DNA from: a bacterium
GTDB taxonomy: Bacteria > B130-G9
DNA: 11,752 nt
Reading direction: 5' to 3'
Assembly: GCA_021160245.1 (NCBI GenBank)
Contig: JAGHCW010000229.1
Span: 1-11,752, forward strand
Both the position numbers and the translations under genes were made by a program. Under the pieces are notes generated by a model. The model saw only the letters and a program-made list of their open reading frames with translations. It did no database searches and had not been told where the DNA came from. Shown here in pieces: positions 1-11,372 of this stretch. The number at the start of each line of letters is the position of its first letter. The first letter of the stretch is position 1.

Positions 1-384
1 ATTTTGATCCTTCAGATTGTGCGAAGCGGTGATCATTGCAGCGCCTGTTGCCCCGCGAACAAGCATGTAAAGCGGAATGGCCGGCGTCGGCAATATCCCG
101 ACCGAAAGGACGGAGGCGCCAGCCTTGCGCGCGCCTCGAATGAATGCATTTATGAAATGACCTTTCGGGTCTCTCGGGTCCCAGCCAATCACGATTGGGT
201 TGTCTCGTTTGAATCGGCCAAGTCTTTCGAGGTCCGTTATGAAGCAGAAGGCGTAAAGCTCCATGAAGCCCGGTGTTATGACTCCGGCCTCTTGGAAGGC
301 CTTCAGTGGGTCGAATCCGCGAGCCCGGGCGCTATCATCAAGCGCTGTCGGGCGGCGAATGCCATCCGTGCCCTGAATCCGCAT
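1..384 (-). CDS. Phosphohexomutase family protein (GlmM/PMM-like), N-terminal 128 residues, runs off the window
   Basis: Reading the minus strand from ATG at 384 gives 128 codons without a stop up to the window edge, so the C-terminal domains are missing. Visible alpha-D-phosphohexomutase hallmarks are the N-terminal IQGTDGIRR (residues 3-11), GWDPRDP (67-73), GILPTPA (96-102) and the active-site serine loop TASHN with Ser121, the residue phosphorylated in this family. Members interconvert hexose 1- and 6-phosphates. Position just downstream of a GlmU-type domain suggests phosphoglucosamine mutase (GlmM) in UDP-GlcNAc synthesis, but phosphomannomutase or phosphoglucomutase cannot be excluded because the sugar-specificity loop lies outside. 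AGGAG at 392-396, 7 nt before ATG, supports the start. It lies 65 bp after the preceding gene on the same strand and is probably co-transcribed. Oddity: the usual Pro after SHN is Leu here. The family call is secure; the substrate is inferred. Confidence 0.85.
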   Translation of the reverse strand, partial: MRIQGTDGIRRPTALDDSARARGFDPLKAFQEAGVITPGFMELYAFCFITDLERLGRFKRDNPIVIGWDPRDPKGHFINAFIRGARKAGASVLSVGILPTPAIPLYMLVRGATGAAMITASHNLKDQN

Positions 385-449: not shown

Positions 450-2306
450 TCAATTTTCGGCTTGCCAAGCTGTTGAGATCGAGCTGCCAATCTCGCTTAG
501 ATATTGCTCCGCCAACTTAAGATCATCTTCGGTGTTTATGCCTAGCGCTTCTCGGCTGTCCTTCACTTGGCAGATCGCCGCCTTGCCGCCCTTCTCTAAG
601 AGGAGTTTGACGGCGTCAGTAAGATAATACTCCCCCTGGGCGTTTTCATCGCCAACCTGGCCCACAAGGTCTAGGAATGAGTGGTCGGAGCCGAGGCAAT
701 AGACTCCCACGTTGATTTCTTTGATCTCCTTCTCGGCGTCAGTGGCATCTGCCGCCTCTATGATTGCCTCGAGATTCCCATCATCATTTCTCTTGATGCG
801 GCCGAGGGAACCCGGCTCGTCTAGCACAGCAGTTGTGAGCGCCAATTGGGCATCCTCTCCGGTGAGTCGCTCCATTAGGCGGTTTATGATGTCAAAGGTC
901 AAAAGCGGCGTGTCACCATTCAGGATGATCATGCTATTCTTTGATGGGCGGATGTGGGGAATGACCTGCATAACGGCATGAGCTGTTCCAAGCTGCTCCT
1001 CCTGATGAACGAAGACGATGCGGCCCAAATCATCGGTGATCTGAGTGTAGTTGCTCTTGACATAATCCATGACGCCCTGGGCTCCGTGCCCCACCACGAC
1101 ATAGATATCCCTCATGCCGAACTTGCCGACGAGGTCCAGAACATAACCCAGAAGCGGCTTCCCGTTCAGTTCTGTCAAGACCTTGGGCACGTTCGCATTG
1201 TTCATCCTCTTGCCCTTGCCGGCCGCCAAGATTATGCAATCCATGTTCGTTACAATACCGCACTTGCCTAGGCATTTAACAAAAGCGTCAACGACGTCCG
1301 GATCGAACTGGGTTCCTTTATTCTCTGTGAGCCGCTTGACGGCCACATCAAGCGTCATCCGCCGTCTGTAGCTCCTCGTAGAAGTCATCGCGTCAAAAGC
1401 GTCCGCCACACATAATATCCGCGAGAGAAGCGGTATATCCTGACCTGCGAGTCCGTCAGGATAGCCCTTCCCATCCCAACGCTCGTGATGGTGCCTAATG
1501 AGCACCTTCTCTGTGGACAGAAAACTCAGCGGCTCGATCATCCGCGCCCCTTTGTCCGGGTGCTCGCGCATTATGCGCCACTCGTCGTCGGTGAGTTTTG
1601 TTGTTTTGCACAACACTTCTTCCGGGACGCCTATCTTGCCTATGTCGTGAAGGCTGCCGCCTATCTGGAGAGCAACTATTTGTCCGTCATCAAGGCTCAT
1701 CTCGCTCGCGATCCGGACAGAGTATTCGGTTACTCGCGAGGAATGACCTTGAGTGTAAGCATCTCTTTCCTCTAAAACGACGGCAAAGGATTTGATGATC
1801 TCCAGATAGCTCCTCCGAAGTTCATCACGAGAGTCCTGAAGCTCAGTGGTTCTAAGTCGCACCTTCTTCTCAAGCTCAAGGTTGAGCTCTTTGAGCTCCT
1901 TGGTCAGGCGGATATTCTCGAGCTTCAATCGCCGCTTGTCGATTACGGTCTGCACGGTATGCAGCAGCTGTTCGACCTTGAAGGGCTTGGTAATGTAGTC
2001 GTATGCGCCCTTCTTGAGCGATGAGACCGCTGATTCGACCGTCATGTAAGCCGTCATCAGAATAACCGCTGTCTCAGGCTCCCGCCTCATCCGCAACACG
2101 TGGTCTAAGAGGGTCAAGCCGTCCATTCCGGGCATCCTGATATCCGTAACTATCGCGTCGAATGAGGAATCTCCAAACAATTGGAGCGCGGAAAGCCCGT
2201 TGTCCGCTGCCTCAACGTGGTAGCCACCCATGGTAAGAGCCTGGACAAGGTTGTCTCTAAGGCTTGCAGAATCCTCAACAACAAGAATCGAAGATTTCGC
2301 TTCCAT
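450..2306 (-). CDS. Response regulator REC-HD-GYP fused in frame to GlmU-type uridylyltransferase
   Basis: A 618-residue protein from ATG 2306, chosen because AAGGAG at 2312-2317 sits 6 nt upstream; an in-frame ATG at 2327 would add 7 residues. Residues about 5-120 are a receiver domain with phosphoacceptor Asp55 (TDIRMPGMDG), Thr85 and Lys107. About 120-170 is a charged, coiled-coil-like linker. About 172-350 is an HD-GYP domain with LHDIGKIG (His220, Asp221) and HHERWDGKGYP (273-283), the motifs of c-di-GMP phosphodiesterases of the RpfG type. From Met355 follows a GlmU N-terminal domain: LAAGKGKRM (360-368), PKVL (374-377), GTAHAV (440-445), NGDTP (463-467), GEYYLTD (558-564). That domain makes UDP-GlcNAc from GlcNAc-1-P and UTP. 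The left-handed beta-helix acetyltransferase half of classical GlmU is absent. It follows rpmB and precedes a phosphohexomutase. Each domain call is strong. The fusion itself could be real or caused by a sequence error at the junction. Confidence 0.9.
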   Translation of the reverse strand: MEAKSSILVVEDSASLRDNLVQALTMGGYHVEAADNGLSALQLFGDSSFDAIVTDIRMPGMDGLTLLDHVLRMRREPETAVILMTAYMTVESAVSSLKKGAYDYITKPFKVEQLLHTVQTVIDKRRLKLENIRLTKELKELNLELEKKVRLRTTELQDSRDELRRSYLEIIKSFAVVLEERDAYTQGHSSRVTEYSVRIASEMSLDDGQIVALQIGGSLHDIGKIGVPEEVLCKTTKLTDDEWRIMREHPDKGARMIEPLSFLSTEKVLIRHHHERWDGKGYPDGLAGQDIPLLSRILCVADAFDAMTSTRSYRRRMTLDVAVKRLTENKGTQFDPDVVDAFVKCLGKCGIVTNMDCIILAAGKGKRMNNANVPKVLTELNGKPLLGYVLDLVGKFGMRDIYVVVGHGAQGVMDYVKSNYTQITDDLGRIVFVHQEEQLGTAHAVMQVIPHIRPSKNSMIILNGDTPLLTFDIINRLMERLTGEDAQLALTTAVLDEPGSLGRIKRNDDGNLEAIIEAADATDAEKEIKEINVGVYCLGSDHSFLDLVGQVGDENAQGEYYLTDAVKLLLEKGGKAAICQVKDSREALGINTEDDLKLAEQYLSEIGSSISTAWQAEN

Positions 2307-2358: not shown

Positions 2359-2601
2359 CTAGCTCTTCGTCTCTTCGGTCGGGGAACTTGACTCGATCTT
2401 GAAATTCCCTTTGTGATACTTCTCCACTTTGCCAGCCTTGAGGCAGCTTGTACAAACCTTGATGCGCTTCTGCTTGCCCTCAACGATCGCCCGAACTGTC
2501 TGGAGGTTCGGCTGCCACCTGCGATTTGTAACATTGTGCGCATGGCTGATGTTGTGACCAAACATCGGTTTCTTGCCGCAGACCTCGCATACTCTTGCCA
2601 T
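2359..2601 (-). CDS. rpmB: Large-subunit ribosomal protein bL28 (zinc-binding C+ form)
   Basis: An 80-residue basic protein matching bacterial L28. It starts with [11 protein letters not shown], then has [19 protein letters not shown] (residues 16-34) and [15 protein letters not shown] (45-59). Two CxxC pairs (Cys5/Cys8 and Cys50/Cys53) form the zinc-ribbon seen in the C+ version of this protein. It is a structural component of the 50S subunit. ATG lies 1 nt after the rph stop, and its ribosome-binding site (AAGGAG, 7 nt before ATG) lies inside the end of rph, so the two are probably translationally coupled. The C-terminal tail beyond about residue 68 is Ser/Glu/Lys-rich and probably disordered. 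Length is normal for the family apart from that tail. Identification is secure. Confidence 0.97.
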
Positions 2602-2602
2602 A

Positions 2603-3349
2603 TTAAATCTCCTTTCCGACCACCAAGATGTGGTTTATATCTCCAAGCACTTCCCGCTGCATCTTCACCAGATGAGCTATCCCCTGCTCCGCGAGATCGA
2701 GCAACCCATTTAGGGTCCTTCTGTCGAACGGCTCGCGCTCAGCCGTCCCTTGAATCTCCACGATCTCGGAGCTATCCATCATTACAACATTCATATCGAC
2801 CGCTGCCGTAGAATCCTCAGAATAATCAAGGTCCAGCAGAAGATCACCTCTCACTATACCAACGCTGGTCGCCGCAACAAAGCTCCTTAAACATGGCAGG
2901 CTTTGCTTCGTGCCGATTATCCATGTGAGCGCATCGCAGAGCGCGATAAACGACCCCGTTATGGAGGCCGTCCTTGTGCCGCCGTCCGCCTGAAGTACGT
3001 CGCAATCTATCCAGATTGTTCTGTCAGGAATCATCGAAAGGTCAACAGCCGCCCGCAAAGAGCGACCGATTATGCGCTGTATCTCATGGGTGCGCCCCGA
3101 GACGCGGCCCTTCAATGACTCCCTCGGAATCCTAGTCGCGGATGAACGAGGCAGCATACCATACTCGCCTGTTATCCAGCCCTGACTCTTGCCCCGCAGG
3201 AAAATGGGGACCTCGTCTTTGACGGTCGCCGTGCATAGCACCTTCGTGTTGCCCTGCGTTATCAGAGCCGAGCCCTCAGCATACTTCGCAAATCCGCGCT
3301 CTATCTTAACCGGCCGTAATTCGTCAGCTGCTCTTCCATCGGCCCTCAA
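2603..3349 (-). CDS. rph: Ribonuclease PH (tRNA 3'-end phosphorolytic exoribonuclease)
   Basis: A 248-residue protein collinear with RNase PH. It has an N-terminal R-A-D-GR...LRPV segment, [10 protein letters not shown] (34-43), [13 protein letters not shown] (57-69), [12 protein letters not shown] (85-96), [17 protein letters not shown] (116-132) and DMNVVM (185-190) with EIQGTAE (198-204). The family trims tRNA precursor 3' ends using inorganic phosphate, as a hexameric ring in the cytoplasm. The start is TTG at 3349: an in-frame TAA lies a little upstream, no in-frame ATG is near, and GGAGG is centred about 10-12 nt before it. The N-terminus aligns with the family from this codon. It sits 53 bp after the octanoyltransferase gene and 1 bp before rpmB, in one co-directional group. 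Length is normal and the key motifs are intact. Confidence 0.97.
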
Positions 3350-4288: not shown

Positions 4289-4627
4289 TCAGTTCGAGGG
4301 TGAACCTGCCCGACGTAGTTTCTTCAAGCACATATAGGCCAATAGACCACCCAAAACAAGAAAAACGATACCAAGCCAGAAATAGGGTGTCATAGCCAGC
4401 ATGATGCAGCAACAGATAAGCGCAAAAACACCGGCCAAGACAAATGCGTAGCCCCATCCCCTTAAGAGCGATCCCAACAGACACACGAATGAGAATCCAT
4501 AGAACAAAGTGAGGGCGATGATGGCGCTTATCTGTGAGCCTTCATACATCCCGTGCTCTTTCCCGCAGCCTTGTAGGACGGACGAACCAAGGACTAGAAT
4601 GAAAACTGCACAAGCGGTTGATCTCAC
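4289..4627 (-). CDS. Small membrane protein with lipobox-like N-terminus, coupled to the phosphate transporter gene
   Basis: A 112-residue hydrophobic protein whose family I do not recognise. The N-terminus looks like a lipoprotein signal peptide: Arg2, a hydrophobic core, then LQGC with Cys21. After it come about three membrane-spanning stretches (roughly 32-54, 58-79 and 82-100) and a short basic tail LKKLRR. The start is GTG at 4627; it overlaps the stop of the transporter gene by 4 bases (GTGA), and GAGGAG about 5 nt upstream lies within that gene's end. This predicts translational coupling and suggests a role alongside the transporter. The Cys-rich run ICCC (71-74) in the second segment is unusual. 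It could instead be a plain polytopic protein whose first segment is a signal anchor. Being a gene is likely; its function is unknown. Confidence 0.7.
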   Translation of the reverse strand: MRSTACAVFILVLGSSVLQGCGKEHGMYEGSQISAIIALTLFYGFSFVCLLGSLLRGWGYAFVLAGVFALICCCIMLAMTPYFWLGIVFLVLGGLLAYMCLKKLRRAGSPSN

Positions 4628-6432
4628 GAGAACTCCTCTATGTCCGACGCAGTGTACTCATCTGTGAGCTCGAACGCCTCCAGCACATTCACAATGTTAT
4701 CAGCTGTCTTCTCCATATTGGACACTATATCATTTGATATGACCTGTCCCCAGAGCTTCTCCTCGATCTTGGACTCACCTCTTCTGAACGCAACGTATCT
4801 GTCTCTGTTGCGCTTGCGAAATGAGTGTTTCATCTCGTCGATTTTCTCCTCTTTCTTAAGCGCGGCATTTGCATGAGGCCTACTACCCTCTCTCAGTGCG
4901 AGCAGTGATTCACCCGTCATACTCAGAACTAGGTCCGACATCGCAACGATGTCTGCCTTCGCCGGCGCAGAGAGACACTGACCGAGCTTCTTAAGCCGCT
5001 CAAGTAACTTCGAGGTGCTCTCCATCGCATCTCCCATGTTCTCAACGTCGTTGACAGCATGCAACAGGCGCGTCAGCGCCTCGCTGTCTGCCACAGAGAC
5101 ACCCTCGTTGATCACCATGCTGATATACTCTGTGATCTCTGCCTGATGACGGTCAAGCTCGTCCTCCAATCGCATGATCTCCGCCTTGGGAGATAGGTCC
5201 TCCGTCGATATCATCCCGCGCGAAATGGACAGCATCTCATGGGCACGCTCAAACATGTGCAATATCGCCTTCTTTATCTGGCCGATAGCCACCGGCGGGA
5301 GATTAAGGAACTGCTCCTGAAGAAAACGACCTCTCAATGATCTCTCCTCAACCACCTTCTTGTCCGGTAGAAGCCAAGTAACGAGGCGCGCCATCAGACG
5401 AATGAATGGCAGCTGTATCGCCGTGTTCGCGACGTTAAACATGGTGTGGGCGTTGGCGATATGCCGGGCAATTGCTGCTTGAGAGTTTGCTTCCCCAGGC
5501 GTAACAAAATCGACGAATCGCTCGAAATAGGAGAGTACTGCAACTACCCACACGACGCCAAGAACGTTGGAGACAAGGTGGGCTACTGCCGCCCTCTTCG
5601 CGTCGCAGCTTGTGCCAATGGACGACAAGAGAGCCGTGACCGTTGTGCCGATATTGTCCCCTAGCATCAGCGGCACTGCGGTTTTGAAATCAATAAGGCC
5701 GCTCGTGCCAAGGGCGATAACCAGCCCGACTGTTGCGCTACTGGACTGGACTACGACGGTGAGGATTATCCCGGCGAGTATCCCCAATAGAGGTTCTTTG
5801 CCAAATTGCACAAAGAAATTGGGGAACTCTGGACTCTCGCGAAGCGGCTCAAGGCCACGAACCATGGTCGTTAATCCATAGAACAGAACGCCAAAACCAA
5901 GAACCGACCGGCCCCAAAGCTTCACATGCTCACGCTTCGAGCTCATGCTGACCGCCATGCCAATGGCAAGAATCGGCAGAGCATACTTCGTTATCTTGAA
6001 CGCTATCAACTGAGCGGTTATCGTCGTTCCAATGTGCGCCCCGTATATGACCCCCATCCCCTGCACAAGCGACATAAGCCCCGCATTCACAAAACCGACA
6101 ATCATGACCGTCGTCGCGCTGCTGCTTTGGATAATTGCAGTCAAGGCCGCGCCGACCATCACCCCCCTGATCGAACTACTCGTCAGAAACTCAAGTATCC
6201 GACGAAGCCGCTGCCCAGCCACCTTTTGAAGGGAATCGGACATGATCTGAACGCCGAAAATGAAGAGACCCAGGCCCCCAACCACGCTAAATAGAAGGGG
6301 GGTGAAATCCACAGTTGCTTTCAGCCGACCGAGGCCCGCGAATATGCCAGTGACCCAGAGCAAACACAGACCTATGCCCAGGACTCCAACGCCTATGAGC
6401 TTTCTGCGTAGTGACTGAGTATCGATCTGCAT
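4624..6432 (-). CDS. Na+/Pi-cotransporter family protein (NptA/PNaS type) with C-terminal PhoU-like domain
   Basis: A 602-residue inner-membrane protein. Two inverted family repeats each carry the signature QSSSAT (102-107 and 229-234), followed by GAHIGTT (131-137) and GDNIGTT (258-264), typical of sodium-dependent phosphate cotransporters. About eight hydrophobic segments span residues 13 to about 350. The remaining roughly 220 residues are helical and charged, with the alternating heptad-like character of a PhoU domain. The expected role is phosphate movement across the membrane, with the PhoU-like tail as a sensor or regulator; substrate direction cannot be read from sequence. I start at ATG 6432, preceded by GAGG with 6 nt spacing; an in-frame TTG at 6444 would add four residues. 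It is the first gene of the minus-strand block, behind the candidate promoter, and its end overlaps a small membrane-protein gene by 4 bases. Confidence 0.92.
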   Translation of the reverse strand: MQIDTQSLRRKLIGVGVLGIGLCLLWVTGIFAGLGRLKATVDFTPLLFSVVGGLGLFIFGVQIMSDSLQKVAGQRLRRILEFLTSSSIRGVMVGAALTAIIQSSSATTVMIVGFVNAGLMSLVQGMGVIYGAHIGTTITAQLIAFKITKYALPILAIGMAVSMSSKREHVKLWGRSVLGFGVLFYGLTTMVRGLEPLRESPEFPNFFVQFGKEPLLGILAGIILTVVVQSSSATVGLVIALGTSGLIDFKTAVPLMLGDNIGTTVTALLSSIGTSCDAKRAAVAHLVSNVLGVVWVVAVLSYFERFVDFVTPGEANSQAAIARHIANAHTMFNVANTAIQLPFIRLMARLVTWLLPDKKVVEERSLRGRFLQEQFLNLPPVAIGQIKKAILHMFERAHEMLSISRGMISTEDLSPKAEIMRLEDELDRHQAEITEYISMVINEGVSVADSEALTRLLHAVNDVENMGDAMESTSKLLERLKKLGQCLSAPAKADIVAMSDLVLSMTGESLLALREGSRPHANAALKKEEKIDEMKHSFRKRNRDRYVAFRRGESKIEEKLWGQVISNDIVSNMEKTADNIVNVLEAFELTDEYTASDIEEFS

Positions 6433-6457
6433 GTAACGCCTCAAGTCCTAAATAATG

Positions 6458-11051: not shown

Positions 11052-11372
11052 ATGGATAAAAGAGTCCATTCAGTAATACTCAGATATAGGGATGGCCTTG
11101 ATAAGGTAGGCGTGCGGAATAGTAAGATAATCCTGTATGGGTCATACAACAATGCGACGGCCAGAGAATACAGCGACATCGACCTCATTGTTGTCTCCGA
11201 TAGTCTTGCGGATCTCGACATTTGGGAGAGGCAGTGCATTCTTGGTGACGCAACCTCGGGAATATACGAGCCGATCGAGGCGATGGGATACACCGTTGCC
11301 GAGTACGAGGCGATGGGTCCCGGGACGTTCATCGGGCAAGAGGTCAAGGCTAAGGGGATTGAGGTTGTATAG
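11052..11372 (+). CDS. Minimal nucleotidyltransferase (MNT) domain protein
   Basis: A 106-residue protein with the polymerase-beta-type nucleotidyltransferase core. It has KIILYGSY (25-32) with Gly30-Ser31 and, after a short loop, YSDIDLIVVSD (40-50) with the metal-binding Asp42 and Asp44. A third acidic residue is probably Glu73 or Glu76 in YEPIEAMGY. The C-terminal EVKAKGIEVV is typical of stand-alone domain proteins of this group. Such proteins transfer nucleotides to unknown targets. Many are antitoxins that AMPylate a HEPN toxin encoded next door, but no HEPN-like gene is visible on either side here, so a toxin-antitoxin role is not supported. The start is set by a 12-nt Shine-Dalgarno. 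It follows the gcv operon behind a hairpin and converges on the next gene, 26 bp away. Confidence 0.8.
   Translation: MDKRVHSVILRYRDGLDKVGVRNSKIILYGSYNNATAREYSDIDLIVVSDSLADLDIWERQCILGDATSGIYEPIEAMGYTVAEYEAMGPGTFIGQEVKAKGIEVV

Follow-up and report, generated by a model that had tools for sequence, protein, structure and literature searches.

A conserved fusion of receiver, HD-GYP and GlmU-type uridylyltransferase domains in one bacterial family

Cyclic-dinucleotide signals usually reach envelope synthesis through transcription, PilZ-type receptors or non-covalent complexes such as DacA–GlmM. In an 11,752-nucleotide stretch of bacterial DNA (the window), a first-pass annotation made from the letters and their open reading frames described a single frame that joins a receiver, an HD-GYP domain and the N-terminal catalytic domain of GlmU, which acts in the synthesis of UDP-GlcNAc. 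The locus raises the question of whether such a protein is genuine and, if it is, whether it ties cyclic-dinucleotide turnover to the supply of an envelope precursor.

Reading frame, junction and distribution

The frame lies at the positions first given for it (450–2306), and its strand, which had been left unstated, is minus; the plus strand of this interval is not open and contains many stops. The frame begins with an ATG (2306), which has AGGAG directly 5' of it, and ends in a stop at 450–452 (Table 1). A second in-frame ATG lies upstream at 2327, and positions in the Pfam and NCBIfam scans are counted from this upstream ATG, that is, with an offset of +7. The 618-aa product carries the three domains in the order described: Pfam matches from the N to the C terminus were Response_reg (98 bits), HD_5 (145), NTP_transf_3 (71) and NTP_transferase (46), and every motif was found (Asp55, HD, HHExxDGxGYP, LAAGKGKRM, PKVL, QLGTAHAV, GDTP and GEYYLTD). 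The NCBIfam model for NosR-family RR-HD-GYP proteins matched at 276 bits over residues 14–356, below its 400-bit cut-off. The GlmU model (TIGR01173) matched at 213 bits, below the equivalog cut-off of 366.85 bits that applies to bifunctional GlmU, and its coverage is limited to model positions 2–237 of 452; thus, only the uridylyltransferase half is encoded, and the C-terminal acetyltransferase half is absent. Judged from sequence, these domain and motif matches are far beyond chance.

Table 1 Features of the fusion gene and of neighbouring genes in the window
Feature	Position	Strand	Basis or remarks
RR-HD-GYP-GlmU(N) fusion protein	450..2306	-	618 aa; frame, Pfam and NCBIfam; conserved in G001–G003
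Receiver domain, residues 1–125	1932..2306	-	Pfam Response_reg, invariant residues, model pLDDT mostly >90
Continuous helix of ~71 residues, residues 111–181, coiled-coil-like, joining receiver and HD-GYP	1764..1976	-	AlphaFold model
HD-GYP domain, residues 179–345	1272..1772	-	Pfam HD_5, alignment to 4mcw and 5z7c, invariant columns, Foldseek
Fusion junction, ...KCLGKCGIVTN/MDC...	1242..1274	-	Ungapped; no Shine-Dalgarno-like motif before Met355
GlmU-type uridylyltransferase domain, residues 355–618	450..1244	-	NCBIfam glmU, PDB matches, invariant columns, Foldseek
rpmB (ribosomal protein L28), upstream neighbour	2362..2601	-	Read from sequence; same place in relatives
rph (RNase PH), upstream neighbour	2603..3349	-	Same order in relatives
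Downstream phosphohexomutase, 5' part, GlmM-like	1..384	-	Cut by contig end
Conserved lipoprotein/membrane protein, 110–140 aa	4289..4627	-	No Pfam match
Na+/Pi cotransporter with PhoU domains	4624..6444	-	Same operon in relatives
Small MNT-type nucleotidyltransferase	11052..11372	+	Pfam NTP_transf_2

Errors that lose a stop or introduce an indel, and so join two neighbouring genes, are a priori common in metagenome-assembled genomes, and the ancestral Met355 sits at the junction. We searched sixty genomes with the whole fusion protein. The same fusion was present as one open frame in all four genomes of the family, spanning three genera: that of the window (G000) and, among the relatives in which the first-pass annotation had proposed to look, G001, G002 and G003, which belong to two other genera. 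These three proteins are 69–70% identical to the window protein over aligned residues 8 to 613–616 (numbered from the upstream ATG), and the junction, FDPxxVDxFxxCLxxxGI(I/V)T(S/N)/MDC(I/V)ILA, has no gap in any of the four. Neither observation that had been named as fatal to the fusion was made: relatives encode one protein rather than two separated by a stop before Met355, and the junction is free of indels. The shared single-frame junction, present in four independent genomes at this divergence, rules out assembly error or two separate genes, and we regard an artefact as extremely improbable. Over residues 336–372, which span the junction, pN/pS was 0.17–0.33 with synonymous sites of the fusion saturated or nearly so between genera, which argues that the junction is translated and under coding constraint. 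The junction has essentially no added linker and retains the old GlmU start methionine (Met355). An internal start at this methionine, yielding a separate GlmU, is unlikely, as no Shine-Dalgarno-like motif precedes it in any of the four fusions. On these comparisons of sequence, the fusion is genuine and conserved in this family.

The fusion seems confined to a single small lineage of uncultured bacteria. Among 386 genomes sampled across the domain, with the top three candidates per genome scored, only the four family genomes gave a full-length match; receiver–HD-GYP proteins elsewhere in this sample end near residue 345–355. Further phylum searches found no fusion in 6 genomes (all candidates scored) or in 80 genomes (top 15 candidates scored), which brings this limited search to about 470 genomes, and the fusion-bearing family seems to be the sole one of its phylum in the genome set searched. 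No plasmid match covering 80% of the query occurred among the 5,000 best-scoring records. Exact-peptide patterns found no fusion on genome contigs, a weak negative because such patterns would also miss relatives at 70% identity. Stand-alone GlmU-N proteins of 242–269 aa were present in 9 of the 13 genomes with loci read, with no receiver–HD-GYP neighbour, and nowhere in the loci examined did unfused RR-HD-GYP and GlmU genes lie side by side. To the first-pass annotation this architecture was not known as a described family, and our literature search, whose reach ended short of supplementary architecture tables (PMC8846402 Table S1), likewise found no description of receiver, HD-GYP and GlmU in one protein. 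The domain architecture appears to be new; its constituent parts are known.

Catalytic residues and predicted structure

In the receiver, E11, D12, D55 (the phosphoacceptor), T85 and K107, the residues expected of a response regulator, are invariant in the four fusions. The metal ligands, catalytic Asp/Lys pair and signature motif of the HD-GYP domain are likewise invariant (H188, H220–D221, K224, H249, H273–H274, D302 and DGxGYP, here DGKGYP), and D182 aligns with Asp183 of PmGH. Alignment to 4mcw and 5z7c places Tyr184 at the position of PmGH Glu185 (Tyr184-Thr-Gln in all four fusions), and the trinuclear E/D-T-G signature, with its Glu185-equivalent carboxylate ligand, is absent. HD-GYPs have been split into an E/D-T-G group that binds three metals and a Tyr/Phe group suggested to be binuclear (Bellini et al., PMC4159591); dinuclear HD-GYPs perform the first hydrolysis only, and some HD-GYPs cleave 3'3'-cGAMP (reviewed in PMC8177086). 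Tyr184 therefore assigns the fusion to the Y/F subgroup, with two metals predicted rather than three. The best PDB match to the receiver–HD-GYP part, 5z7c, is a 3'3'-cGAMP phosphodiesterase that likewise has Tyr at this position, so c-di-GMP is not to be assumed as the substrate. The domain may be a two-metal enzyme with pGpG as its end product, or may favour another cyclic dinucleotide. Degradation of c-di-GMP, as first proposed, is thus uncertain. GGDEF proteins are encoded in all four family genomes; the fusion operon contains no partner kinase gene.

The GlmU domain has R367, K375, Q435, G440, T441, D465, E517, N532, Y561 and N591, which are invariant in the four fusions and with 20 diverse GlmUs, and Q438 is a further annotated residue of this domain. 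The catalytic Arg/Lys loop, the Mg-binding Asp and Asn and the sugar-contacting Glu, Asn and Tyr are all in place, and the domain matches PDB GlmU structures with an E value of 1e-44. By the residues checked it is catalytically complete and predicted to be active. The GlmU motif GYGRI has a near-invariant Tyr, in place of which all four fusions have Leu (GSLGRI; Leu501 of the window protein). Between genera, the GlmU half is 55–58% identical, compared with 78–79% for the HD-GYP half; this faster divergence would fit fewer constraints, adaptation or a changed sugar specificity, each of them possible. The expectation that the GlmU part makes UDP-GlcNAc holds for the uridylyltransferase step, and a separate GlcN-1-P acetyltransferase is required in place of the missing C-terminal half.

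We folded the protein with AlphaFold using two separate alignments, one of receiver/HD-GYP relatives and one of GlmU relatives. With the former, the receiver, helix 111–181 and the HD-GYP domain were mostly predicted at pLDDT above 80–90, and the best Foldseek match of this model was PmGH (4mcw). With the latter, residues 355–610 were mostly at pLDDT 60–93, and the best Foldseek matches of the GlmU part were GlmU structures, 1g97 first. Overall pTM was 0.45–0.49 and each domain was modelled only where its own alignment was deep, so the models do not place GlmU confidently against HD-GYP.

UDP-GlcNAc supply and gene neighbourhood

Matches over the model cut-offs were found for glmS in three of the four family genomes, for murA in three and for lpxA in all four, with the glmS and murA gaps falling in two less complete assemblies; the presence of these genes indicates that the family needs UDP-GlcNAc. 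In each of the four genomes the fusion alone reaches 200 bits or more against the GlmU model. The next best reaches about 70 bits, and a second bacterial-type GlmU that would render the fusion redundant was rejected on this basis. Also rejected was GlmR/YvcK, which can serve as an accessory uridylyltransferase (PMC10128056) and has no match in the four genomes.

A further protein scores above the Arch_glmU cut-off (306 bits; checked in G000). In G000 this paralogue (G000:C162, L131; in relatives L127, L132 and L133) sits directly 5' of glmS, and the same pairing occurs in G001. The nucleotide-loop sequence of the paralogue is GQGAGLSPLS in G000 and GRGANLSPLS in the remaining three genomes, compared with GSGERLEPIT in ST0452; Gly or Asn thus replaces the Arg of the ST0452 motif in all four. 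This Arg is known as a catalytic residue of the superfamily. The substitution suggests a dead or altered nucleotidylyltransferase domain in a protein retained for its acetyltransferase half, although the paralogue could retain some activity. A stand-alone beta-helix acetyltransferase of 228–245 aa (G000:C25:5955-6479, L141; L134 and L135) was found in G000, G001 and G002; it resembles the C-terminal half of Arch_glmU and is a candidate GlcN-1-P acetyltransferase. With no other intact bacterial-type GlmU, no GlmR and an Arch_glmU that lacks the Arg, the fusion stands as the leading candidate for UDP-GlcNAc pyrophosphorylase. Gene content in these draft genomes, which are 83–95% complete, would be read most simply with acetylation carried out by one or other of the two beta-helix proteins and the uridylyl group transferred by the fusion.

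As far as contigs extend, one gene order is common to the window and its relatives: phosphate transporter, small membrane protein, lipoate ligase, rph, rpmB, fusion and phosphohexomutase. Within it, rph, rpmB, the fusion gene and the phosphohexomutase gene form a shared operon. In all four genomes the phosphohexomutase gene comes directly after the fusion, and in G001 and G003 the two genes share a 4-base overlap. The phosphohexomutase is unusually long, with 740–782 aa in G002 and G001 (L119 5096-7318, plus strand; L121 8068-10416, minus strand), and its matches to GlmM/PMM models are confined to domains I and III. Its score against GlmM, about 100 bits over the N-terminal part, is far below the cut-off of 447, which leaves its substrate uncertain. 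A second GlmM-like protein scores 182–198 bits in G000, G001 and G002; in G003 the match is partial. At the other end of the gene order, the relatives likewise retain the cotransporter and the conserved small protein that follows it within one operon.

Tethering, proposed coupling and the alternatives

We favour, with modest confidence, a working enzyme that is tethered to a phosphorylation-controlled cyclic-dinucleotide phosphodiesterase, an arrangement that would co-localise, and probably couple, cyclic-dinucleotide turnover and envelope-precursor supply. The GlmU domain would form UDP-GlcNAc from GlcNAc-1-P provided by a separate acetyltransferase. The receiver would govern the state of a dimer formed through the long helix and, by analogy to other receiver–HD-GYP proteins, phosphorylation of Asp55 would alter the dimer and linker helix and so set HD-GYP activity. 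Links between cyclic dinucleotides and GlmSMU enzymes in other bacteria make coupling plausible: in Staphylococcus, GlmM binds the c-di-AMP cyclase DacA and inhibits it (PMC6368335), and c-di-GMP raises transcription of glmS and glmU in Salmonella (PMC10100716). A signal could run from the receiver or the dinucleotide to GlmU, or from UDP-GlcNAc state to HD-GYP. More tentatively, allosteric control of the only functional GlmU uridylyltransferase in the cell may come from receiver phosphorylation and dinucleotide binding or hydrolysis, or the phosphodiesterase may be controlled by UDP-GlcNAc. In the first-pass annotation, a genuine fusion would tie a phosphorelay and c-di-GMP turnover covalently to precursor supply; the physical tie stands, but by itself it does not establish regulation of either activity by the other.

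A serious rival, although we lean against it, is a passive fusion, in which loss of a stop codon joined GlmU-N to the HD-GYP gene and brought co-expression and co-localisation only, with no allostery. The virtual lack of extra linker, the retained GlmU start methionine, the stand-alone GlmU-N proteins of 242–269 aa in many other genomes with no adjacent RR-HD-GYP gene and the occurrence of the fusion in a single family all fit such an origin, but the fusion has been kept over three genera between which synonymous sites are saturated, and none of the four genomes has it re-split. It is improbable that the domain uses a sugar-1-phosphate other than GlcNAc-1-P while the Arch_glmU paralogue makes UDP-GlcNAc. 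That paralogue exceeds a curated cut-off and adjoins glmS in G000, as does its orthologue in G001; the operon mutase scores 100 against the 447-bit glmM cut-off, and another phosphohexomutase is encoded elsewhere in the genome. The paralogue is nevertheless without the catalytic Arg in each of the four genomes, and the fusion domain fits GlmU far better than other nucleotidylyltransferases and keeps the GlcNAc-contacting Glu, Asn and Tyr. We give little credence to a GlmU domain that is mainly a sensor, relaying UTP, GlcNAc-1-P or UDP-GlcNAc status to HD-GYP so that precursor supply sets the dinucleotide level. The better conservation of the HD-GYP half (78–79% versus 55–58%) would suit a sensor, and Staphylococcus offers a known case in which a GlmSMU enzyme is coupled to a cyclic-dinucleotide enzyme, GlmM–DacA, the closest published logic (PMC6368335); however, every GlmU catalytic residue checked is retained and there is no other intact bacterial-type GlmU, so catalysis is probably needed.

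Regulators of the RpfG, TM0186 and NosR type share the receiver, HD-GYP domain, phosphoacceptor, metal ligands and GYP motif with the fusion but stop after HD-GYP, where the fusion adds a third, biosynthetic domain; the fusion also differs from them in the Tyr that replaces PmGH Glu185 and in missing the 400-bit NosR cut-off. With bifunctional GlmU it shares a complete N-terminal uridylyltransferase domain and its catalytic residues, and it has N-terminal signalling domains instead of the C-terminal left-handed beta-helix acetyltransferase. Stand-alone GlmU-N proteins of other phyla (242–269 aa) have the same acetyltransferase-free domain, which is neither fused to nor beside RR-HD-GYP in the loci examined. 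The dacA–ybbR–glmM genes and the DacA–GlmM complex (PMC6368335) likewise couple a cyclic-dinucleotide enzyme physically to an enzyme of UDP-GlcNAc synthesis, but there a c-di-AMP cyclase and a mutase associate non-covalently, whereas here a phosphodiesterase is covalently joined to a uridylyltransferase. GlmR/YvcK, an extra uridylyltransferase tied to cell-wall stress (PMC10128056), belongs to a different protein family. In the fusion, a core precursor enzyme, apparently the sole intact one of its type, is covalently bound to a two-component-controlled phosphodiesterase. Because of this attachment, a direct effect of second messengers on UDP-GlcNAc supply could be examined in a single purified protein. 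If the allosteric reading were true, this would be a direct covalent link from second-messenger signalling to an essential envelope-precursor enzyme.

Elsewhere in the window, the small MNT-type nucleotidyltransferase gene downstream of gcvPB possibly encodes a component of a HEPN/MNT toxin–antitoxin system.
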